This document shows positions 55-23,067 of a stretch of DNA of 57,344 bases, piece by piece. The stretch lies in the NCBI RefSeq assembly GCF_025370875.1, contig NZ_JAMXFD010000033.1, positions 1-57,344 of the forward strand, written 5' to 3'. The notes under the pieces were generated by a model. It did not search any database, had not been told where the DNA came from, and was given only the letters and a program-made list of their open reading frames with translations. This stretch comes from Laspinema palackyanum D2c (GTDB taxonomy: Bacteria > Cyanobacteriota > Cyanobacteriia > Cyanobacteriales > Laspinemataceae). Numbering within the stretch: position 1 is the first letter of the stretch; every line of letters starts with the position of its first letter. The translations under genes were made by a program, and so were the position numbers.

Positions 55-122
55 TCACCACAAGTCCTAAAGAGCCAACAGAATTTTAAGTCTGCCGCGT
101 CTACCGATTCCGCCACAGGAGC
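55..122 (-). pseudogene. tRNA-Leu(UAA)-like, 3' part lost
   Basis: Read on the minus strand, the 5' acceptor strand GCTCCTG, a D-arm (GCGGAATCGGTAGACGC) and an anticodon arm with loop CTTAAAA (anticodon TAA) are intact, and a long leucine-type variable region follows. No T-stem or TTCNANT loop appears after it and there is no 3' acceptor strand complementary to the 5' one. The sequence runs instead into an AT-rich palindrome (GATAAATTTATC). The group I intron common in cyanobacterial tRNA-Leu(UAA) is absent; the loop reads like a spliced product. It is the last array member visible before the window edge. Likely a truncated pseudogene; the exact 3' limit is uncertain. Confidence 0.7.
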
Positions 123-135
123 GAGAGAACAAAGG

Positions 136-209
136 TACTCCCGGTGAGACTCGAACTCACAATGAATCGCTTTTGAGGCGATCGCGTTTTCCAATTACGC
201 CACAGGAGC
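136..209 (-). tRNA. tRNA-Leu(CAA), class I body
   Basis: The cloverleaf reads acceptor GCTCCTG / CGGGAGT, D-stem GCG/CGC, anticodon stem ATCGC/GCGAT with loop CTCAAAA (anticodon CAA), a five-base variable loop TCATT, T-stem GTGAG/CTCAC with loop TTCGAGT, and discriminator A. The odd feature is the short variable loop: bacterial leucine tRNAs normally have a long variable arm (class II). Its 5' acceptor strand is identical to that of the adjacent damaged Leu(UAA) gene. It lies 9 bases downstream of tRNA-Gln(TTG) in the array. Confidence 0.85.
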
Positions 210-218
210 AAAAATTGG

Positions 219-292
219 ATGCCCCGCCAGGGATCGAACCTGGACTCTTCTGGGTCAAATCCAGAAATGTTACCTAATTACACCACAGGGCA
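219..292 (-). tRNA. tRNA-Gln(UUG), array copy
   Basis: Acceptor TGCCCTG pairs with CGGGGCA. The anticodon stem TCTGG/CCAGA carries loop ATTTGAC with anticodon TTG, and the T-arm is CCAGG TTCGATC CCTGG. The 3' CCA is encoded (216-218). A second, normal tRNA-Gln(TTG) lies at 22996-23067, so this array gene is redundant with the chromosomal one and differs from it in sequence. Confidence 0.92.
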
Positions 293-303
293 TTGTGATA
301 TGG

Positions 304-376
304 ATGCCTGGGTTGGGGTCGAACCAACCTCTCTGTGAGTCAGATTCACAGCGACTTGCCAATCGTCCACCAGGCA
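304..376 (-). tRNA. tRNA-Gln(CUG)
   Basis: The acceptor TGCCTGG / CCAGGCA is perfectly paired, starting with the U1-A72 pair. The anticodon stem TGTGA/TCACA has loop ATCTGAC, giving anticodon CTG. The T-arm is GTTGG TTCGACC CCAAC and CCA is encoded at 301-303. The D-stem is three pairs (GAC/GTC). It is a paralogue of the neighbouring Gln(TTG) and reads CAG codons. Confidence 0.88.
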
Positions 377-383
377 ATACCAG

Positions 384-457
384 TCCCCCAGGTCGGTTTC
401 GATCCGACGACCTCCTGTTCTTCAGACAGGCGCTACTACCAACTGAGCTACCGGGGG
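384..457 (-). tRNA. tRNA-Phe(GAA)
   Basis: Acceptor CCCCCGG / CTGGGGG; anticodon stem CCTGT/ACAGG with loop CTGAAGA (anticodon GAA). The T-stem GTCGG/CCGAC is sound, but its loop is ATCGAAA, so the near-universal U54 is A. The 3' strand of the D-stem also has one mismatch. Pairing is otherwise good. CCA is not encoded. These deviations suggest a divergent, possibly poorly functional phenylalanine tRNA. Confidence 0.85.
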
Positions 458-461
458 ATAA

Positions 462-551
462 AGGAGAGAGAGGGATTTGAACCCTCGTCGGATTTATTCA
501 ACCCGATCGGTCTTTCCAAGACCGCGCCATCAGCCTCTCGGCCATCTCTCC
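462..551 (-). tRNA. tRNA-Ser(GGA)
   Basis: Class II tRNA. Acceptor GGAGAGA / TCTCTCC, anticodon stem CGGTC/GACCG with loop TTGGAAA (anticodon GGA), a long GC-containing variable arm, and T-arm GAGGG TTCAAAT CCCTC. The discriminator is U, whereas serine tRNAs usually have G. CCA is not encoded. Confidence 0.9.
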
Positions 552-588
552 AGGTTGGGTGAATTTCACCCAAGTTATACAAAAAAGG

Positions 589-675
589 CGGAGAGGGAGG
601 GATTTGAACCCTCGACGGTCGTTAAACCGCTCTTTCTTAGCAGGAAAGCGCCTTAAGCCACTCGGCCACCTCTCC
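589..675 (-). tRNA. tRNA-Ser(GCU)
   Basis: Class II tRNA. Acceptor GGAGAGG / CCTCTCC, D-arm with GCCGAGTGG, anticodon stem CTTTC/GAAAG with loop CTGCTAA (anticodon GCT), a long variable arm, T-arm GAGGG TTCAAAT CCCTC, discriminator G. It lies 4 bases after tRNA-Tyr. The downstream bases are GCCT, so a full CCA is not encoded. Confidence 0.93.
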
Positions 676-679
676 AGAA

Positions 680-766
680 TGGGCCGGGAGGGACTCGAAC
701 CCCCATGTTCAGCACAATAGCACTTGATTTACAGTCAAGCTCCTTCACCAATTTGGATACCAGCCC
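680..766 (-). tRNA. tRNA-Tyr(GUA)
   Basis: Class II tRNA. Acceptor GGGCTGG / CCGGCCC, anticodon stem CTTGA/TCAAG with loop CTGTAAA (anticodon GTA), a long variable arm, T-loop TTCGAGT, discriminator A. Length 87 nt is normal for bacterial tRNA-Tyr. CCA is not encoded. Confidence 0.93.
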
Positions 767-777
767 ATACAATGTGG

Positions 778-852
778 CAGTGCCGACGGGATTTGAAGAA
801 AGCAAACGCTGACTTGAAAGGTCAGTGGCTTTACCAATTTGCCTACGGCACC
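778..852 (-). pseudogene. tRNA-Glu(UUC)-like with broken T-stem
   Basis: The acceptor GGTGCCG / CGGCACT, the D-arm GGC/GCC and the anticodon stem CTGAC/GTCAG with loop CTTTCAA (anticodon TTC) all pair. The T-loop TTCAAAT and the 3' T-stem strand CCCGT are present. The 5' T-stem strand should be about ACGGG but reads CTTTC, so the T-arm cannot form. CCA is encoded at 775-777. Either a pseudogene, or a tRNA-like RNA kept for another purpose. An intact Glu(TTC) gene lies 170 bases upstream in the same array. Confidence 0.7.
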
Positions 853-859
853 AGGTTGG

Positions 860-931
860 CGAGGGGACTGAGATTTGAACTCAGATCAACGGTTTTGGAG
901 ACCGTCATGTTAGCCGTTACACTATCCCCAC
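860..931 (-). tRNA. tRNA-Trp(CCA)
   Basis: Acceptor GTGGGGA / TCCCCTC with a U2-U71 mismatch, D-stem GTGT/ACAT, anticodon stem ACGGT/ACCGT with loop CTCCAAA (anticodon CCA), T-arm CTGAG TTCAAAT CTCAG, discriminator G and encoded CCA (857-859). The D-arm and anticodon arm are canonical, while the acceptor mismatch is unusual. The gene is only six bases from tRNA-Met. Confidence 0.87.
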
Positions 932-937
932 GTTTGG

Positions 938-1009
938 TCGCAGCAGCAGGATTTGAACCTGCATCAACCCAGTTATGAGCTGGGTACTTTACCATTAAGT
1001 TATACTGCG
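938..1009 (-). tRNA. tRNA-Met(CAU)
   Basis: Acceptor CGCAGTA / TGCTGCG, anticodon stem CCCAG/CTGGG with loop CTCATAA (anticodon CAT), T-arm GCAGG TTCAAAT CCTGC, discriminator A, CCA encoded at 935-937. The first acceptor pair C-G is matched, so it is not a typical bacterial initiator (which has a mismatched 1-72). It is an elongator Met tRNA or, less likely, an Ile tRNA with a modified CAU anticodon. Confidence 0.88.
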
Positions 1010-1021
1010 ATATTGATTTGG

Positions 1022-1093
1022 TAGCCTCAACGGGAATTGAACCCGTATCCCAGCCTTGAAAGAGCTATATCCTAACCATTAGACGATGAGGCC
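1022..1093 (-). tRNA. tRNA-Glu(UUC)
   Basis: Acceptor GGCCTCA / TGAGGCT (G1-U72 wobble), D-arm with GTCTAATGGTTAGGAT, anticodon stem TAGCT/GGCTG carrying one U-U mismatch and loop CTTTCAA (anticodon TTC), T-arm ACGGG TTCAATT CCCGT, discriminator A. CCA is not encoded. Confidence 0.9.
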
Positions 1094-1150
1094 AGATCCA
1101 TTTCAACCGAATTTTTTTCTTGGTTTTTCCAAATTTAATCTGGGCTGAAC

Positions 1151-1224
1151 GGGAGTGACGGGACTTGAACCCGCGACGACTTGTTCGACAGACAAGTGCT
1201 CTACGCTAACTGAGCTACACCCCC
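1151..1224 (-). tRNA. tRNA-Asp(GUC), first gene of the array
   Basis: Acceptor GGGGGTG / CACTCCC, D-arm GCTC/GAGC, anticodon stem CTTGT/ACAAG with loop CTGTCGA (anticodon GTC), T-arm GCGGG TTCAAGT CCCGT. CCA is not encoded. It is the promoter-proximal member of the minus-strand array, about 200 bases downstream of the predicted promoter. Confidence 0.94.
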
Positions 1225-1713
1225 ATGAAATCAGCCTTAGATTACATGGAATTTGGAAAAGTTTGGCGGTTGATGGGGTGGGAATGATTCAAGGGAATGA
1301 TTCCCACCCATTGAGTCCGCCATTGTTTCCGTTTTCATTAAATGGCCCTTTGATTATTCAGTTTTCAAGGTTCGATGTGGGCGTTTGGGTAGAGCGTTTT
1401 GCTCTGTCTCTCTCGCCTCATATTTATATACTACATACATACTACAAAACTGTCAAGGGGTTTTGGAAAAATTTTTGAGTTTTTTTTGAAATTTCATTGA
1501 AATGCTTGTTTAACAAGGGTTTTGCCTGACAAGCAATCTGAGAAAACTGCAGTAAATTAACATACTACAATGAGAAAAGACTGAAGTATGGGCTGGATCC
1601 CAATAGGCCCAGACAGAGGGTGCTGACTCTCTTCGATGGAGTAGCGCTGACCCGGTTCTAGTTTTGGACCGAAAGCTGGTTAAAATCAGTAGGGTATCTT
1701 AAAAAATCAAGCC
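1225..1713. other. Divergent intergenic region: array leader and GST leader
   Basis: No gene is seen here. The left part (1225-1427) is the leader of the minus-strand tRNA array below its promoter. The right part holds the upstream region of the plus-strand GST gene, with a structured segment at 1618-1653 in which GGGT pairs with ACCC and ACTC with GAGT around a small loop, followed by a second short hairpin (about 1653-1671). Confidence 0.6.
1428..1456 (-). promoter_or_regulatory. Promoter of the tRNA array
   Basis: On the minus strand, TTGACA (1456-1451) is separated by exactly 17 bases from TAGTAT (1433-1428). This is a near-consensus sigma-70-type promoter, pointing at tRNA-Asp. A start point around 1420 would give a leader of about 195 bases before the first tRNA. 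Confidence 0.75.
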
Positions 1714-3243: not shown

Positions 3244-3639
3244 TCAATCTACTTCATTGAGTAAGGAAACCCCGGCATTCGCTTCCTCAGAACATTTGAG
3301 GATATAGAACTCAGCCCGATCGCTCAAGGCGGTGACAAAAACCCCAAAATCGTTCTGAGAATCCGTAGAGATCCAAGTCCCGCGTAGGCTGACTTCCACA
3401 TACTCGCTATCGGCAACGCAGATGGAAATCATATCCCCTGGATCGTTTAATGCCTCCGCTTCCAGAAATTTCAGTCCGGGCAAATCTGTAGGCAGCAAAA
3501 ACGACGCGCTAGAGGGGGCGATCGCGATGCTTTCACCCACTCGCATCGCCACGACTGCACGGGTCGCCACGACTTCCTCAATGGAGTCAGGCAGACGCTC
3601 TAGGTTAAAGCCGGTTTCAGTATAAATGAACTTCAGCAT
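3244..3639 (-). CDS. Conserved hypothetical protein
   Basis: 131 aa, soluble, acidic, beginning MLKFIYTETGFNLERL. I recognise the general form as a conserved short cyanobacterial protein but cannot name a domain or function. The ATG at 3639 has GAGAGA about nine bases upstream. It converges with the preceding plus-strand gene across a shared terminator. No membrane segment and no cysteine pairs that would suggest metal binding. Confidence 0.7.
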   Translation of the reverse strand: MLKFIYTETGFNLERLPDSIEEVVATRAVVAMRVGESIAIAPSSASFLLPTDLPGLKFLEAEALNDPGDMISICVADSEYVEVSLRGTWISTDSQNDFGVFVTALSDRAEFYILKCSEEANAGVSLLNEVD

Positions 3640-4499: not shown

Positions 4500-4817
4500 T
4501 TAGGGTCTTCTCGTCCTAGATGGGTAAGGCACTTGATGCCTATCCCTCCCGCTTCTGCTATGAATATTTGGCCATGCTGATAGCTGACCTAACTCGGATT
4601 TAAAATCCTCACTCATCTCGAAATCTCGGTCCGCATTCCTATGATACTCAACCTGCCCGATGGACACCAAAGCGATAGCCGATGTCACGAGGCGATCGCC
4701 TGCATCAACATCACGGCCCAAGCCATTGGCATACTGTCCGGTGATTGTAGGAAGGAGGGGTAAAAAGTTCACGTTTAGATTTTTTGAAAGCAAGGACTTG
4801 AATTCTCCACCAAACAT
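4500..4817 (-). CDS. Hypothetical protein, doubtful
   Basis: 105 aa frame starting MFGGEFKSLLSKNL. No recognised domain; the C-terminal 30 residues are rich in Arg, His and Ser in a way typical of non-coding frames. In its favour, it ends with tandem stops just before a strong minus-strand terminator and fills an otherwise empty 380-base stretch. There is no clear ribosome binding site. It may be a decayed gene or the body of an untranslated RNA ending at the terminator. Confidence 0.35.
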   Translation of the reverse strand: MFGGEFKSLLSKNLNVNFLPLLPTITGQYANGLGRDVDAGDRLVTSAIALVSIGQVEYHRNADRDFEMSEDFKSELGQLSAWPNIHSRSGRDRHQVPYPSRTRRP

Positions 4818-4865
4818 ACTACACTAATATTACAGAGAATGTAAACCCTTCAGAGGAAAAAAGTT

Positions 4866-5201
4866 ATGTCCGCGATTACTCGAACCTCCACCACCGAAAT
4901 GGAAGTCACCAGCATCCGCTTAGAGAGATCTCTGAAAGAAAGCCTCAAAGCCATTTCTGGCAATCAAGGCTATCAAGCCTTGATTCGAGACGTGCTCTGG
5001 AATTATGTCCAGCAAAAATCAGGAGAGTATCGACCTTCATTTTCCCGAGACGATATTCGCGCCAGTTTAGATGCGACGGCCCAACGAGAGGAACGGTGTG
5101 TCCTCACCGGCAAAGTGATTCGACCGCAAGAACCCATGTTATTAGGCTTAACCACCGGGGGCGATATGGTACCTCTGAGTATAGAGAGTATGGTTGGATA
5201 G
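4866..5201 (+). CDS. Ribbon-helix-helix-type small protein
   Basis: 111 aa. Residues 10-55 (EVTSIRLERSLKESLKAISG, then YQALIRDVLWNYV) have the strand-helix-helix pattern of CopG/Arc-like DNA-binding domains. The C-terminal half includes REERCVLTGKVIRPQEPM, an unassigned module with one Cys. AGAGGA lies eight bases before the ATG. No toxin gene follows within 150 bases, so it is more likely a solitary regulator than an antitoxin. The DNA target is unknown. Confidence 0.75.
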   Translation: MSAITRTSTTEMEVTSIRLERSLKESLKAISGNQGYQALIRDVLWNYVQQKSGEYRPSFSRDDIRASLDATAQREERCVLTGKVIRPQEPMLLGLTTGGDMVPLSIESMVG

Positions 5202-12906: not shown

Positions 12907-15900
12907 ATGTCTAATAATTTACCGGCCCAGAAGTTGAAGCCCAATGCAGATGTGAATTGTAACCCCGAAAATCAGCAGGGGGGGCTGATTCAAACTTATA
13001 CCCGGGTGGGAATCCTCTTGGGTTGCATGATCCCAGTCTTTGCATGGATTCTGGACATGGTGATGCGAGAGGTGGACTGGTCTTTAGGGGCGATCGCCCA
13101 GGTCCATCTCACCAATCCACTCCACTGGATTCTAGACCTTAACCCCCTATTCTTCGGCTGGATGGGGTGGACCTGGGGACAATTAAAAATTGCCCAGAAA
13201 ACCACCTATCCCACGTCTTTGCATTTTAGTCCGGTCCAAAGCGACAGGGTTGGCATCCCATCCCTGGGGACCCCCACCGCAGACCAACTGGCACTTTACC
13301 TGAATCATCTCCCGATCGCCGTGATTGAATTCAACCTCAACGGTGAGATTCAAACCTGGAATCCCACTGCCGAAACTCTCTTTGGCTATCACGCCAGCGA
13401 AGCGATCGCCACCCCTTTAGTCACGGCTATCATCCCAGAAAATGCCCGTTCTGATTTCCAAAACCACTGGAATCACTTCTTAACCCACCCCTGTAAACAG
13501 CGTTGGCGGTTAGAAAATCGCACCCGAGACGGCAGAACCCTAACTTGTGAATGGAATGTCCTTCCCCTCCTCAATCAGTCCCGTGAACTCATCGGAGTCG
13601 CCGCTTTAGTTTGCGAAATTACTCAGCAGGTGCAAATCGAAACCGCTTTGCGCGATAGCGAAGCCCGATTGCGCCGACTCTCGGAAGCCACCTTTGAAGG
13701 GATCATCATTCATATCCGAGGAAAAATTATCGATGTTAATCAAGCCCTCGTAAAAATGAGCGGCTACTCGGAAGCCGAGTTGATTGGCAAAAATGCCTTC
13801 GATTATTTAACCCCCCACTCTAAAAGAATCGCTTTAACCCGGATTAAATTAGGCGATGCAACCCCTTACGAGGTAGAGGTTTTAAAAAAAGACGGCACAA
13901 TTGGGGTCGTAGAAATTCAGGGGAAAGAAATTTTAAATTCCGGTGAAAGAGTCCGGGTGGCAGCGGTGCGAGACATTAGCGATCGCAAACGCTCCCAAGA
14001 CCTGGAAAAATTGCTCATCGCCACGGTGACTGAAAATCAACGAACCCTAGCCACCCTGATGAGCAACCTTCCGGGCATGGTTTATCGCTGTAAAAATGAC
14101 CAAAGCTGGACAATGGAATTTGTCAGCGATGGATGTGTCGAATTAACCGGATATAATTCCGAAGATCTCATCGGGAATCGCCGGGTTTCTTTTGGCAAAA
14201 TCATCCATCCTGACGATCAAGACCAACTCTGGGCAAAGGTCCAATCCAGTTTACAAAACCAACAGCCCTTTGAATCGGCTTACCGCATCATCACTCGCAG
14301 TGGAGAAACCAAATGGATTTGGGAACAAGGACGCGGGATTTTTTCAGTTACGGGAGAATTATTTGCCCTAGAAGGTTACCTAACTGATATCACCGAACGC
14401 ACCAAATCCGTAGAAGCTCTGCGTCAGAGTGAAGCCCGCTATCGGGCTATTTCTGAACTAGCTTCGGATTTTGTCTATTCCATGACCCTCAATGAGCAGG
14501 GTGAACCGATCGCCGAATGGGTGACTGAATCCTTTAAACGGATCACGGGCTATACCCGAGAGGAAATCAATCAAAAAGGCGGCTGGCATCGGGTGATTCA
14601 TCCCGAGGATTTGCCCAAGTTTCGGCAATTTGAGCGAGAAATGCTCGGGGAACAGGGGGCGGTTTTAGAATACCGAATTTTTACCAAATCCGGTGAAATT
14701 TGTTGGTTGCGCGATTCCGCCCGAACGGTTGATAACCCCGGGGAAGAACCGAGAAAGAAGGTGCTCGGTTCGGTGCAGGATATTAGCGATCGCAAGCGGT
14801 CCGAGTTCCAAATGTTACACGCTATGTCTTTATTGAGCAAAAGCGAAGCCAAAAATCGCGCCTTGCTCAATGCCATGCCTGATTTAATGTTCCGCTTTGA
14901 TCGCAAACAAACGATTTTGGACTTTAAACCTGTCAATGGCATCGATTTTGGTAACTTAAGCGGCCAATTTTTAGGTAAAAAATTAAGTGAATTATTATCC
15001 GATGAAGTGGTCGCCGATTGTATTAATGCTTTAGAAAAAACTTTACAAAGTCATGAAATTGAAATATTTGAATATGACTTAACTATTAACGAAGAAATAT
15101 TTAGTTATGAAAGCCGGGTGGTGGCAAGTGGAGAGCAGGAAGCCTTGGCGATCGTCCGAGATATTACCGCCCGCAAGCGCTCGGAAGCGGAAAAACTGCA
15201 ATTAATCGCCTCTTTGCAAGAAAGTGAAGAAAAATATCGGTCCGTGGTGAATACGGTTCAAGAAGTCATTTTTCAAACCGACCCCAATGGATGCTGGACT
15301 TTCCTGAACCCGGCTTGGACGGAAATCTCAGGATATAGTATCCAAGAAAGTCTGGGGACGCCATTTTTAAACTATATTCATCCCGAGAATCACCTGGAGA
15401 CTCAACAAAAATTCCAGAAATTGGTGCAAGGACAGATTGACTATTGCCACCATGAGGTGTGTTATCTGACCAAGAGGGGCGATCGCCGCTGGATCGACGT
15501 TTATGCGAGGCTGAGACTCTCTGCCGAGGGGACAATCATCGGCCTTGCCGGGACTCTCAACGATATCAGCGATCGCAAGAAAGTCTCCCAGCAATTGCAA
15601 GAAGCCAAAGCCGCCGCCGAAGCAGCAAACCGCGCTAAAAGTGCCTTTCTTGCCAACATGAGTCACGAACTGCGAACCCCCCTCAATGCGATTATCGGCT
15701 ACAGCGAAATTCTCCTCGAAGAATCTGAAGATTTAGGGTCGGAAGAATTCATCCCGGATTTGCAAAAAATCCAAGTTGCCGGAAGACACTTACTCTCCCT
15801 GATTAACGATATTTTGGATATTTCCAAAATCGAAGCGGGTAAGATGGAACTCTATTTAGAAACCTTCGAGATCCAGACTCTGGTTGAAAATGTCCTGGCC

Positions 15901-16437
15901 ACCGCCAAACCCTTGATTCAAAAAAATAACAATACCTTAGAATCAATCTGTCCCCCTGATATCGGAACCTTATATGCAGACTTGACAAAAATCCGGCAAG
16001 TGTTATTAAACCTATTGAGTAATGCCGCTAAATTCACCACCGAGGGAACCATTACCTTTGAGGTTTCTCGCGACCTGATGTGGATTCCTCAGACCCCTTT
16101 GAATTCATCTCTCGGGGAGTCGGGGGAACCGAGGGGGACAGATTCTACCCCCCCTGTCAACGGTGACCCTTTGGGGCCTCCGTCTCCCTGTATTATCTTT
16201 CGGGTGACGGATACGGGGATTGGCATGAGTCCCGAACAAATGAATCAAATTTTTAACGCCTTTACCCAAGCGGACCCTTCTACGACGCGCAAGTATGGCG
16301 GCACAGGTTTAGGATTAGCCATTTCTCAGCGATTCTGCGAGATGATGGGAGGTGAAATCTCCGTGAGCAGTCAAGTGGGAGTGGGGTCCACTTTTACAGT
16401 CCGTCTCCGGACTGTCCCAGTTCAGCCTGACTCCTAA
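12907..16437 (+). CDS. Multi-PAS sensor histidine kinase
   Basis: 1176 aa. Two hydrophobic segments near residues 34-52 and 72-95 anchor it in the membrane. Six PAS-type domains follow at about 125-245, 250-362, 378-500, 508-632, 645-755 and 770-892, several ending in the D-I-[ST]-x-R-K PAC motif. The dimerisation/phosphoacceptor domain has NMSHELRTP with His at about 920. The ATPase has the N-box (LLNLLSNAAKF, about 1035), G1 DTGIGM (1102) and G2 GGTGLGLA (1131). About 40 residues rich in Pro, Gly and Ser are inserted before G1. There is no receiver, so phosphate should pass to a separate regulator, plausibly one of the flanking receivers. Signals sensed are unknown. Confidence 0.95.
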   Translation: MSNNLPAQKLKPNADVNCNPENQQGGLIQTYTRVGILLGCMIPVFAWILDMVMREVDWSLGAIAQVHLTNPLHWILDLNPLFFGWMGWTWGQLKIAQKTTYPTSLHFSPVQSDRVGIPSLGTPTADQLALYLNHLPIAVIEFNLNGEIQTWNPTAETLFGYHASEAIATPLVTAIIPENARSDFQNHWNHFLTHPCKQRWRLENRTRDGRTLTCEWNVLPLLNQSRELIGVAALVCEITQQVQIETALRDSEARLRRLSEATFEGIIIHIRGKIIDVNQALVKMSGYSEAELIGKNAFDYLTPHSKRIALTRIKLGDATPYEVEVLKKDGTIGVVEIQGKEILNSGERVRVAAVRDISDRKRSQDLEKLLIATVTENQRTLATLMSNLPGMVYRCKNDQSWTMEFVSDGCVELTGYNSEDLIGNRRVSFGKIIHPDDQDQLWAKVQSSLQNQQPFESAYRIITRSGETKWIWEQGRGIFSVTGELFALEGYLTDITERTKSVEALRQSEARYRAISELASDFVYSMTLNEQGEPIAEWVTESFKRITGYTREEINQKGGWHRVIHPEDLPKFRQFEREMLGEQGAVLEYRIFTKSGEICWLRDSARTVDNPGEEPRKKVLGSVQDISDRKRSEFQMLHAMSLLSKSEAKNRALLNAMPDLMFRFDRKQTILDFKPVNGIDFGNLSGQFLGKKLSELLSDEVVADCINALEKTLQSHEIEIFEYDLTINEEIFSYESRVVASGEQEALAIVRDITARKRSEAEKLQLIASLQESEEKYRSVVNTVQEVIFQTDPNGCWTFLNPAWTEISGYSIQESLGTPFLNYIHPENHLETQQKFQKLVQGQIDYCHHEVCYLTKRGDRRWIDVYARLRLSAEGTIIGLAGTLNDISDRKKVSQQLQEAKAAAEAANRAKSAFLANMSHELRTPLNAIIGYSEILLEESEDLGSEEFIPDLQKIQVAGRHLLSLINDILDISKIEAGKMELYLETFEIQTLVENVLATAKPLIQKNNNTLESICPPDIGTLYADLTKIRQVLLNLLSNAAKFTTEGTITFEVSRDLMWIPQTPLNSSLGESGEPRGTDSTPPVNGDPLGPPSPCIIFRVTDTGIGMSPEQMNQIFNAFTQADPSTTRKYGGTGLGLAISQRFCEMMGGEISVSSQVGVGSTFTVRLRTVPVQPDS

Positions 16438-16942
16438 TGCTCAAATGAGGCATTTTCCAGGGGAAATTCTCTGGCCGTCGGATAGAACCTTCAAGAAATA
16501 GGTAGAATCCTAGGAAGTTTCCCTCTTTAAATGGGATTTCGCCGAATCACTTGCACTACGGCCACAGAGCAAACGCCATCAGGGGTTGATTTGCTCCTTT
16601 AATCTCAGTAAACCCAGCTATGCGGACACTAATGCCATGATGCGATCGCCCAAAACTCCTCTCCTACTCCATGCGGTTCTGAGTCGTTTGAAAACCCCTA
16701 CACCCAGTCGGGTGCAGCTACGCAGACAAAGCCTCTATGAAAAGAGCTAACCTCAAAATAGAACTTTGACCCCCGGATTTGGTATCAAGACGTTCTACCT
16801 CCTGCCGGATCTCTAGGATCCCACGGCTAAGGTTACCCCTATCGTCTCCTAAAGGCGATCGCCACTTCCGATACGGGTTAACCCCATTAAACCCCTGCCC
16901 GATTGCTATTTCGAGCCTGCTAGATTTTAAAGAGTCGATGCC
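16438..16942. other. Intergenic region between kinase and cyclase
   Basis: 505 bases with no convincing gene. It contains an imperfect hairpin CACCCAGTCGGGTG around 16700 and HIP1-type sites, but no clear terminator or promoter. The frames present on both strands lack coding character. Confidence 0.45.
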
Positions 16943-18007
16943 ATGAACCTTGACCAAGCCTCGGTGCTGGTAGTTGATGATGTTGAAGCCAACCGCGATC
17001 TCCTCTGCCGCCGCTTGAAGCGGCAAGGCTACCACGTCAAAATTGCAGAAGATGGACTGAAGGCACTCGAATTAATCCGAGCGGAGCCCTTCGATCTCGT
17101 GCTGCTCGATATTATGATGCCCCATCTTAATGGCTATCAAGTCTTAGAGGAAATTAAGGCCGATTCCAGTCTGCGCCATATCCCGGTGATTATGATTTCC
17201 GCTGTGGATGATATTGATAGTGTGGTCAAATGCATTGAATTGGGCGCAGAAGACTATCTCTCTAAACCCTTTAATCCGGTGCTGTTAAAAGCTCGGATCG
17301 GTGCTTCTTTGGAGAAAAAACGCCTGCGAGACCAAGAACAAGCAGTTTTACAAAAGTTACAAGATGAACAGGCTAAATCGGAACTGCTCTTGCTGAATAT
17401 TTTACCCAAACCGATTGCGGAACGGCTTAAGGCCGGGGAACGGACGATCGCCGATAATTTTTCGGATGTGACGGTTCTGTTTGCCGATATTGTCGGCTTT
17501 TCCCAGCTTTCTTCTCATTTATCTCCCCCGGAATTGGTGGAGTTTCTCAACCATATTTTCTCCTTGTTTGATGAGTTGGCGGATAAATATGGGTTGGAAA
17601 AAATTAAAACTATTGGCGATGCCTATATGGTGGTCGGGGGATTACCGATGCCTAGACCGGACCATGCCCAGGCGATCGCGCAAATGGCTCTCGATATGCT
17701 CGACGCTACGACCCAATTAAAAACAAATCATGGCGAAACGATCGCCATGCGGATCGGCATCAGTACCGGCCCGGTGGAAGCGGGAGTCATTGGAACTAAA
17801 AAGTTTAGTTATGACCTATGGGGGGATACGGTCAATACGGCTTCAAGAATGGAATCTCACGGCATTCCTGGACGGATTCAAGTGACAACTTCGACTTATG
17901 AATGTCTGGCTGATGATTTTTTATTTGAAAACCGGGGCCTGATTCAGGTCAAAGGCAAAGGAGAAATGTTGACCTATCTCCTAATGGGTAAAAAACCTAT
18001 TGTTTAG
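16943..18007 (+). CDS. Receiver domain-adenylate cyclase
   Basis: 354 aa. Residues 6-125 are a receiver with D12-D13, phospho-acceptor D56 (LVLLDIMMP) and K108 (LSKPF). A helical linker (125-150) and ILPKPIAERLKAGE precede a class III cyclase domain (about 170-350). Metal-binding aspartates are D182 (FADIVGFS) and D226 (IGDAYM). K222 and D291 (YDLWGD) are the adenine-type pair, so cAMP is the expected product, and N298/R302 (NTASR) are the transition-state residues. Phosphorylation of the receiver likely controls cAMP synthesis, with the neighbouring kinase a candidate donor. Cytoplasmic. Confidence 0.93.
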   Translation: MNLDQASVLVVDDVEANRDLLCRRLKRQGYHVKIAEDGLKALELIRAEPFDLVLLDIMMPHLNGYQVLEEIKADSSLRHIPVIMISAVDDIDSVVKCIELGAEDYLSKPFNPVLLKARIGASLEKKRLRDQEQAVLQKLQDEQAKSELLLLNILPKPIAERLKAGERTIADNFSDVTVLFADIVGFSQLSSHLSPPELVEFLNHIFSLFDELADKYGLEKIKTIGDAYMVVGGLPMPRPDHAQAIAQMALDMLDATTQLKTNHGETIAMRIGISTGPVEAGVIGTKKFSYDLWGDTVNTASRMESHGIPGRIQVTTSTYECLADDFLFENRGLIQVKGKGEMLTYLLMGKKPIV

Positions 18008-19030: not shown

Positions 19031-19327
19031 ATGGGAAAACCTTCTAGCGGTCGCTTGGTTCTGAATCACTCCACCCATATTCCTGGTTTAATCGCCATCC
19101 TGGAAAAGTTAACGGGTTGCCTCGGCATTCAAACCATTACTCCCGGGGTGATTGGTCGCGCCAAAGGTCACTGTCCCCAGATGAAGTTAAAAATATCGGT
19201 TCCTATTTTGGGCGGATATAAGGTGATTGCCAGACAGGGAAAAACGGTGCAAGAAGTCTTTATCATCACAGAATTAAGTCAACCGGACTTAGAAGGGGCG
19301 ATCGCTTCATGTTTGTCCAAAAAATAG
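19031..19327 (+). CDS. DUF2103-like conserved protein
   Basis: 98 aa beginning MGKPSSGRLVLNHSTHIPGL. This resembles the DUF2103 family of short conserved cyanobacterial proteins, which has been predicted to bind metal; the assignment is from memory of the family pattern. His and Cys residues (NHSTH, GCLG, GHCPQ) could be ligands. The frame extends upstream to a TTG, but the ATG at 19031 is the natural start. Solitary gene downstream of clpS on the same strand. Confidence 0.7.
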   Translation: MGKPSSGRLVLNHSTHIPGLIAILEKLTGCLGIQTITPGVIGRAKGHCPQMKLKISVPILGGYKVIARQGKTVQEVFIITELSQPDLEGAIASCLSKK

Positions 19328-22995: not shown

Positions 22996-23067
22996 CTGGG
23001 GCGGAAGGATTCGAACCTCCGGATGCCTGGACCAAAACCAGGTGCCTTACCGCTTGGCGACGCCCCA
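22996..23067 (-). tRNA. tRNA-Gln(UUG), chromosomal copy
   Basis: Acceptor TGGGGCG / CGCCCCA, D-arm with GCCAAGCGGTAAGGC, anticodon stem CCTGG/CCAGG with loop TTTTGGT (anticodon TTG), T-arm GGAGG TTCGAAT CCTTC, discriminator G. CCA is not encoded. Its sequence fits normal bacterial tRNA-Gln, in contrast to the array Gln genes at 219-376. Confidence 0.95.

Follow-up and report, generated by a model that had tools for sequence, protein, structure and literature searches.

In Anabaena sp. PCC 7120 a long operon of tRNA genes, the trn operon, is under the control of the repressor TrcR, which binds TGTAGTAT over the TAGTAT -10 box; translation inhibitors relieve this repression, the level of TrcR falls when translation is blocked so that the operon is transcribed, and alr0857 is among the genes raised in a trcR deletion (PMC10272220). 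In a second described system, as a section of PMC7790460 sets out, the Ro60 protein of Deinococcus is tethered by a Y RNA to an exoribonuclease, and the tRNA-like part of a Y RNA is suggested as a possible competitive inhibitor of an anticodon nuclease. Here we analysed a stretch of 57,344 nucleotides of Laspinema palackyanum D2c (hereafter the window), which is the entire contig C33 of genome G000 (7.03 Mb, 81 contigs), together with seven congeneric genomes found by search (G001-G007). The window holds the proximal half, with the promoter, of an operon of spare tRNAs (a trn operon) that is very probably repressed by TrcR and that an insertion sequence has cut inside tRNA-Leu(UAA). On another contig, C49, the distal half carries an RNA that joins copies of what we take to be two sites of 23S rRNA, the sarcin-ricin loop (SRL) and the GTPase-associated centre (GAC). 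Taken as a whole, the explanation that we favour, a split TrcR-repressed trn operon with framed decoy RNAs, has in our judgement an even chance of being right.

The proximal tRNA array lies at the left end of the window. ARAGORN found 11 tRNA genes in the window between 134 and 1225, all on the minus strand, and Rfam gave 11 tRNA matches above cut-off, 10 of which are shared with ARAGORN; Gln(CUG) at 301-376 is absent from the Rfam matches, and 778-852 (37.5 bits) is added by Rfam. A first-pass annotation of the window had described at least 13 tRNA-like genes head to tail on the minus strand, and the 12 tRNA genes plus the 5' half of tRNA-Leu(UAA) give that number; the spacers measure 3-10 bases, with two exceptions of 35 and 55. 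It had also reported a TTGACA-17-TAGTAT promoter, which we read as TTGACA at 1456-1451, 17 bases and TAGTAT at 1433-1428, and five array members with an encoded CCA (Glu, Met, Trp, Gln and Gln) beside a tRNA-Gln gene at 22996 without one, both as we observe them. The T arm of the second tRNA-Glu is damaged in the window copy (778-852) and intact in the four congeners compared. The features of the operon and of its presumed regulator are as follows.

1-77, no strand: insertion-sequence end, with the GGCTCTT end at 76/77; also an assembly overlap
78-133, minus strand: 5' half of tRNA-Leu(UAA), which the insertion sequence interrupts; the 3' half lies on C49 (locus L041) at about 19249-19302
134-209, minus strand: tRNA-Leu(CAA), by ARAGORN and Rfam
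216-292, minus strand: tRNA-Gln(UUG), CCA encoded, by ARAGORN and Rfam
301-376, minus strand: tRNA-Gln(CUG), CCA encoded, by ARAGORN only
383-457, minus strand: tRNA-Phe(GAA), by ARAGORN and Rfam
462-551, minus strand: tRNA-Ser(GGA), by ARAGORN and Rfam
587-675, minus strand: tRNA-Ser(GCU), by ARAGORN and Rfam
679-767, minus strand: tRNA-Tyr(GUA), by ARAGORN and Rfam
778-852, minus strand: decayed tRNA-Glu(UUC) with a damaged T arm, by Rfam (37.5 bits)
857-931, minus strand: tRNA-Trp(CCA), CCA encoded, by ARAGORN and Rfam
935-1009, minus strand: tRNA-Met(CAU), CCA encoded, by ARAGORN and Rfam
1019-1093, minus strand: tRNA-Glu(UUC), CCA encoded, by ARAGORN and Rfam
1149-1225, minus strand: tRNA-Asp(GUC), first gene of the operon, by ARAGORN and Rfam
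1428-1456, minus strand: operon promoter TTGACA-17-TAGTAT with two TrcR boxes TGTAGTAT
3244-3639, minus strand: alr0857-family gene (NCBIfam NF045647, 150.8 bits, cut-off 75)
4816-4833, plus strand: trcR operator ATACTACACTAATATTAC, 16 of 18 bases as in Anabaena
4866-5201, plus strand: trcR repressor gene as assigned from its sequence, 111 amino acids, ribbon-helix-helix by reading

One of the two TGTAGTAT boxes at the promoter lies on the -10 box (1428-1435) and the other in the spacer (1439-1446). The window holds five such octamers against 0.61 expected, a number reached in none of 100 shuffles. Judged from the operator upstream and from relatives in Nodularia phages, the open reading frame (ORF) at 4866-5201 is trcR: in tblastn only nine phage records match its product, all of Nodularia phages (34.5% identity, E 1e-5), and they include both phages named in PMC10272220; no match to the product was obtained in Pfam or NCBIfam. 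In all eight genomes roughly 3-4 kb separate trcR from the promoter of the array, and the gene is oriented away from that promoter. These operators and the gene make it very likely that the operon is controlled by TrcR. Further copies of TGTAGTAT at 1562-1569 and 1725-1732 lie near or inside a glutathione S-transferase-like gene (1714-2373), and the copy at 1562-1569 might be an operator of that gene.

The array stops at the edge of the window because the contig ends at an insertion sequence. The first 76-77 bases of C33 are repeated at the ends of C31, C36 and C37, and a pattern search allowing up to 3 mismatches found exactly eight ends of the element in the genome, four of each kind. Three pairs of ends have identical 8-base flanks, TTTTAGAT (C31/C7), CTCCTATC (C37/C38) and TGGAAAAT (C36/C14); the leftover pair, ATTCTGTT on C33 and AATCTGTT on C49, agrees at 7 of 8 bases. 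When the flanks of C33 and C49 were joined minus 9 bases (one copy and an extra T on the C33 side), ARAGORN recognised a tRNA-Leu with the anticodon TAA. That C33 and C49 are separate contigs, with flanks that agree at only 7 of 8 bases and an extra T, could mean that they are not neighbours and hold two separate partial arrays. This is very unlikely, since the remaining element ends all pair exactly and since all seven congeners have an intact tRNA-Leu(UAA) with Pro adjoining it and an array that is contiguous across this point. The congener arrays have a nearly identical gene order; in some of them, other parts of the array contain gaps or lack genes. On the flanks and the congeners together, C33 and C49 almost certainly represent one operon split by the insertion sequence, and the insertion in this strain probably severs the distal half from the TrcR promoter. 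We take the ends and the 8-base duplications of the element to resemble the ISL3 family; a search among plasmids gave no match to it.

The tRNA array itself is a further member of the known trn-operon type. Its gene order was compared with plasmid-borne arrays of two Nostoc strains; 18 of 24 genes are in common order with the array of Nostoc ATCC 53789 (shuffled mean 7.7, maximum 13 in 5000) and 15 of 20 with that of Nostoc PCC 7524 (shuffled maximum 11 in 5000). On the plasmid of the latter, pNOS7524.01 (L334), an array tRNA at 2609-2680 has the anticodon CUA (Pyl according to ARAGORN) and is a possible amber suppressor. The Laspinema genome contains 38 tRNA genes elsewhere, with which the array is largely redundant. 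Identity between an array tRNA and the gene with the same anticodon elsewhere is 0.50-0.84, therefore the array tRNAs are not fresh copies of these genes. Ala(UGC), Leu(UAA) and Ile, tRNAs that usually lie in the rRNA operon or bear an intron, are missing among the 38. The first-pass annotation had supposed that the window edge cuts a longer array driven by one promoter and that the array might be an integrated relative of the Anabaena-type array. The array is indeed longer, with its rest on C49, and its kinship holds, as seen from the colinearity with the two Nostoc arrays and from the published TrcR operator on the promoter. Ordinary single tRNA genes to the left, or tRNAs that are each the sole copy, had been named as findings that would speak against acquisition, and neither was encountered: the array continues, and the 38 genes lie elsewhere. 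One promoter for the whole array can no longer be assumed, because the insertion sequence splits it, and nothing marks the array as a recent integrant, since all seven congeners carry it beside trcR (in G005 both are on a 7.69-Mb contig).

On C49 (L041), ARAGORN found 14 further tRNAs, from Pro to Lys, ahead of a gene for a GNAT-type acetyltransferase and on the same strand; one extra tRNA was given by Rfam at 17928-17999 and is absent from a second listing. A long perfect-looking palindrome between tRNA genes at 17653-17706 resembles a small mobile repeat. The other features of this half are as follows.

13421-14854: gene for a protein of 477 amino acids, probably of Ro60 fold
14959-15697: five tRNA-like repeats, 161-166 bases apart, four by ARAGORN and the fifth below the Rfam cut-off
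16348-17340: GNAT (acetyltransferase) gene
After the GNAT gene: ORF of 66 amino acids
18288-18491, minus strand: SRL-GAC RNA of about 204 nucleotides, between tRNA-Arg(UCU) and tRNA-Ala(UGC)

Within the SRL-GAC RNA, C49 18334-18404 matches the archaeal Rfam model of large-subunit rRNA with 52.6 bits (cut-off 50), and we take this stretch to be the GAC, helices 43-44. About 60 bases before it lies AGTACGAGAGGA, which also occurs in the 23S of a congener and is presumably the SRL core. Similar DNA was found in 28 of 388 genomes in a search of the class (E<=1e-15), and the exact SRL-then-GAC pattern occurs in 85 stretches of the genome-contig collection, all with cyanobacterial titles. The main counts below refer to all 85 stretches, each at most 8 kb; earlier passes covered 80 of the 85 loci (the box and control test) or 79 of those 80, and one intermediate set left out L094, L125, L131 and L132. 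We aligned the Laspinema copy with 27 of 79 others chosen for diversity. In this alignment of 28 sequences 93.1% of the cells are paired and 20 of the 45 pairs have changes on both sides; cells with changes on both sides number 95, compared with 29.7 after shuffling (95 was reached in 0 of 500) and 7-26 when the structure was slid. The alignment supports the closing helix, the SRL hairpin, the GAC and more helices. Several points weigh against this picture: the bacterial rRNA model scores 49.1 bits, just below 50; the Rfam cut-off is reached in L041, L282 and L298 and missed in L220 and eight other copies scanned; the structure and registers tested were chosen on the same alignment, a choice that benefits the paired percentage more strongly than it does the covariation; and helix 44 of the tested structure has no changes on both sides. 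Even so, the covariation leaves us close to certain that the SRL-GAC RNA would prove real and structured.

It might be asked whether the two pieces are the debris of a broken 23S gene, given that both are 23S sequence and that the assembly is without a full 23S gene, its sole large-subunit match being the SRL-GAC RNA. Debris, however, would not be expected with the SRL core ahead of the GAC, the reverse of the 23S order; the match to the bacterial model is confined to about positions 1078-1159. The spacing is kept and the closing helices covary, the arrangement recurs in 85 stretches, copies have TrcR-type boxes of their own, the GAC differs from that of the congener's 23S and the congeners retain the core. 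On the covariation and the reversed order we rule out 23S debris as the source, and we give it next to no probability. Apart from this RNA, three adjacent large-subunit rRNA fragments lie away from the 23S gene in G005 (C1 7166836-7167465).

The surroundings of the RNA are of two kinds. In 35 of the 85 stretches tRNAs lie within 2 kb, and all 412 of these tRNAs are on the strand of the RNA and none on the opposite strand. The other 50 stretches have no tRNA within 2 kb (solo RNAs), and in 27 of these the SRL core is preceded, at a distance of 38-80 bases, by an exact TrcR box. In the first 80 loci the exact box was present in 25 of 47 solo copies, in 2 of 1160 control windows and in 0 of 33 array copies; with one mismatch allowed, it was present in 31 of 47 solo copies and 14 of 1160 control windows. 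The RNA therefore lies either in a tRNA array or, often, under a TrcR-type promoter of its own, although the exact box is missing in 23 of the 50 solo stretches. Two genes occur downstream of the solo RNAs on the same strand, one of them unnamed (in 40 of 90 loci) and the other of ThiF type (in 32 of 90). In the open-licence literature, outside which stand most subscription papers and all preprints, we found no account of RNAs that mimic rRNA, nor any of fragments of rRNA within tRNA clusters or adjoining Ro60; as far as these searches reach, the SRL-GAC RNA is apparently undescribed.

The tRNA-like repeats and the SRL-GAC RNA have a frame in common: one strand of a stem, CCCUAAC and UACAUAC at the start, and at the end ACUUG and the strand that completes the stem. 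In nine stretches (L213, L217, L223, L248, L249, L257, L262, L269 and L290) the same frame carries CTAAGGTAG, which in some of them lies within ATAACGGCCCTAAGGTAG, in our reading helix 71 of 23S rRNA. Three or more kinds of translation RNA are therefore presented on a single frame. Both motifs of the frame were found in 37 of 58 tRNA-like and 3 of 4 helix-71 units, and the closing stem pairs at 4-5 of 5 places in every unit with both motifs (40 of 40 SRL, 37 of 37 tRNA-like and 3 of 3 helix-71 units). It counts against a common frame that, as written, the two motifs are present together in only 40 of 87 SRL units. Ten of 79 other TACATAC sites have both motifs and were read as further frame units. 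On this constant frame the repeats differ widely in their anticodon arms, both from one unit to the next and among the congeners (also in L298-L304); the anticodons of the C49 repeats are Leu AAG, Val CAC, Asp AUC and Met CAU. From 6307 in L298 (the same as L256), a frame start precedes an insert of another sort, which resembles neither a tRNA nor any recognised piece of 23S.

A relative of the 477-amino-acid protein is encoded in 31 of the 85 stretches, always on the strand of the RNA, which is the linkage to a Ro60-type gene looked for in a Y RNA; a first pass of 89 loci, including congeners and plasmids, had given 39 with the gene. We modelled the L228 protein (95% identical to the 477-amino-acid protein) with AlphaFold from 14 sequences. 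The predicted model has a helical-repeat part followed by a vWA part, as in the Ro60 fold, and its top three Foldseek matches in PDB are all Ro60 (9nep, 9nf8 and 1yvp; E 1.8e-8 to 1.3e-6). On the other side of the balance, the model is weak (predicted local distance difference test 62.8, predicted template-modelling score 0.43), the Foldseek alignments of about 454-497 columns have a template-modelling score of only about 0.35, and Pfam gives a VWA match below threshold and no TROVE match, so that neither Pfam nor NCBIfam names the protein; the TROVE chains of PDB match it by sequence at E = 1 only, and the gene was not seen in 54 of the 85 stretches, each at most 8 kb. We conclude that the protein is probably of Ro60 fold. 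The best matches of the Rfam family YrlA (RF02553) have 37.1 bits (E 0.00017, L282) and 34.5 bits (E 0.00095, L257), which is below the cut-off of 69 and on the tRNA-like part, and the SRL-GAC RNA has no match to RF02553; the scores below cut-off are a point against a Y RNA. From the linkage and the shared frame, it seems rather more probable than improbable that the framed RNAs and the Ro60-like protein would bind to form a Ro60/Y-type ribonucleoprotein. Upstream of the Ro60-like gene a paralogue of ribosomal protein L12 is encoded on the same strand in 8 of 90 loci, for example at L269 2753-3133, beside the Ro60-like gene.

Copies of the GAC also occur in viruses. The GAC core was found in 78 viral contigs (L134-L211, 45 clusters), none with more than 300 bases of 23S, and in 69 of the 78 the helix-44 (3' GAC) piece is located further on. 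The insert, measured in 56 contigs of 31 clusters with the stricter motif and enough flank, is 94-331 bases long; its flanks pair at 6 of 6 places in 17 clusters, compared with a shuffled mean of 2.3 and maximum of 8. In 57 of the 78 contigs tRNAs lie within 1.5 kb, 234 on the same strand and 0 on the opposite one. This proximity is tempered by the random points drawn in the same 78 loci, of which 52% have a tRNA within 1.5 kb because these loci are tRNA-rich. We inspected 8 of 17 phage records. Among the seven named phages, the GAC is within 1.5 kb of tRNAs in pf16, UNO-G1W1, Milchi and 4_4572 and 2.6 kb from tRNAs in GAP32, and XacN1 and XaC1 have no tRNA within 3 kb. In Pseudomonas phage pf16 it occupies a gap without annotation that is flanked by tRNA-Asn and tRNA-Pro, and in UNO-G1W1 and Milchi it is partly overlapped by small ORFs annotated on the opposite strand; no Rfam family above cut-off covers the mimic in the seven. 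The joint SRL-GAC pattern had 0 matches in viral contigs, and no SRL core was present in the 78 loci; the phage mimics have neither the SRL nor the shared frame, which counts against the explanation that we favour.

Other viral matches were set aside. The lone SRL 14-mer occurs in 50 viral stretches, one with at least 300 bases of 23S and the other 49 without a tRNA within 1.5 kb; these look like chance or coding matches and give a rough background for the 57 of 78. A match in Paenibacillus phage Pd_22F proved to be a full 23S gene, and no GAC was seen by eye in rnaC and rnaD of T4. Helix 71 has 13 viral matches, one with at least 300 bases of 23S, and 5 of the 12 others have tRNAs within 1.5 kb; one 204-kb viral contig holds both GAC and helix-71 pieces (L209, L339). 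The remaining helix-71 matches, which may be sites of homing-endonuclease type, were not counted.

By extension from Anabaena, translational stress would lower TrcR and the operon would be read, so that spare tRNAs could replenish pools that had been damaged. A single frame serves both the SRL-GAC RNA and the tRNA-like repeats and may be a Y-RNA stem bound by the Ro60-like protein; each framed RNA would present a copy, either of the SRL and GAC of 23S or of a tRNA whose anticodon arm varies, and certain other cyanobacteria also have helix 71 on the frame. The framed RNAs may then act as decoys, luring away nucleases, toxins or drugs that target those sites. We propose this role because the displayed modules are sites attacked by toxins, nucleases or antibiotics and travel with spare tRNAs and, in cyanobacteria, with a presumed RNA-care protein. 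The suggestion in PMC7790460, in its section on the Y RNA and anticodon nuclease, points the same way. Sequence, structure, linkage and operators are what we observe; a decoy role is put forward tentatively, and quality control and titration are good rivals to it.

In the quality-control alternative, the SRL-GAC RNA would be a guide or gate with which the Ro60-like protein directs the control or decay of damaged large subunits under stress. The linkage to a Ro60-fold gene and the tethering of Deinococcus Ro60 to an exoribonuclease described in the section cited (PMC7790460) speak for it; it leaves the frameless GAC mimics in phage tRNA clusters unexplained, and the many stretches, short as they are, in which the Ro60-like gene was not seen do not favour it either. 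We consider it unlikely. An RNA that titrates L11, L12 or translation factors, proteins with roles in factor traffic and the stringent response, could instead tune these processes. The GAC core of the alignment is nearly unchanged at the binding place of L11, and the L12 paralogue upstream of the Ro60-like gene would fit such titration, but this paralogue was found in so few of the 90 loci that titration, too, strikes us as improbable. Returning to decoys, we regard as doubtful the broadest form of the idea, in which cyanobacteria and large phages would share an undescribed strategy of stress or infection operons that combine spare tRNAs with RNAs copying vulnerable ribosome sites (SRL and GAC, GAC alone, or helix 71) as decoys in a translation arms race; in cyanobacteria these would sit on a Y-RNA-like frame with interchangeable baits beside a Ro60-like protein and be induced when TrcR is lost.

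A naturally occurring RNA in which two factor-docking sites of 23S, distant in the rRNA sequence, are brought together would serve as it stands as a minimal model of the GTPase centre, and with it one could test directly whether decoys protect translation in cells and phages. It would also connect three formerly separate lines, the TrcR stress regulon, Ro60 with Y RNA, and the tRNA clusters of phages. To our knowledge, little is known of the role of Ro60 and Y RNA in bacteria.

Compared with the described systems, the locus is closest to the trn operon of Anabaena sp. PCC 7120, with which, in the parts of PMC10272220 on that operon, it has in common a long one-strand tRNA operon redundant with housekeeping tRNAs, a TAGTAT -10 box inside TGTAGTAT and a trcR gene with the same operator. 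Unlike that operon, the array here lies beside trcR, in a congener on a 7.69-Mb contig, and is interrupted by an insertion sequence, and in its distal half there are in addition the SRL-GAC RNA, the tRNA-like repeats and the Ro60-like gene. Large-phage tRNA clusters, such as that of Pseudomonas phage pf16, resemble it in their dense co-directional tRNA genes; their GAC, in contrast, is split by the insert of 94-331 bases and has no SRL core. The TROVE proteins of jumbo phages are likewise Ro60-type proteins in a phage RNA-repair setting, and the passage on them in PMC7824862 names no rRNA-mimic RNA. YrlA with Ro60/Rsr, in the part of PMC7790460 that describes it, is like the framed RNAs a stem-closed RNA with a tRNA-like part adjoining a Ro60-type gene; unlike YrlA, the frame here is used by several RNAs, in which 23S parts, either the SRL and GAC or helix 71, replace the tRNA-like part.

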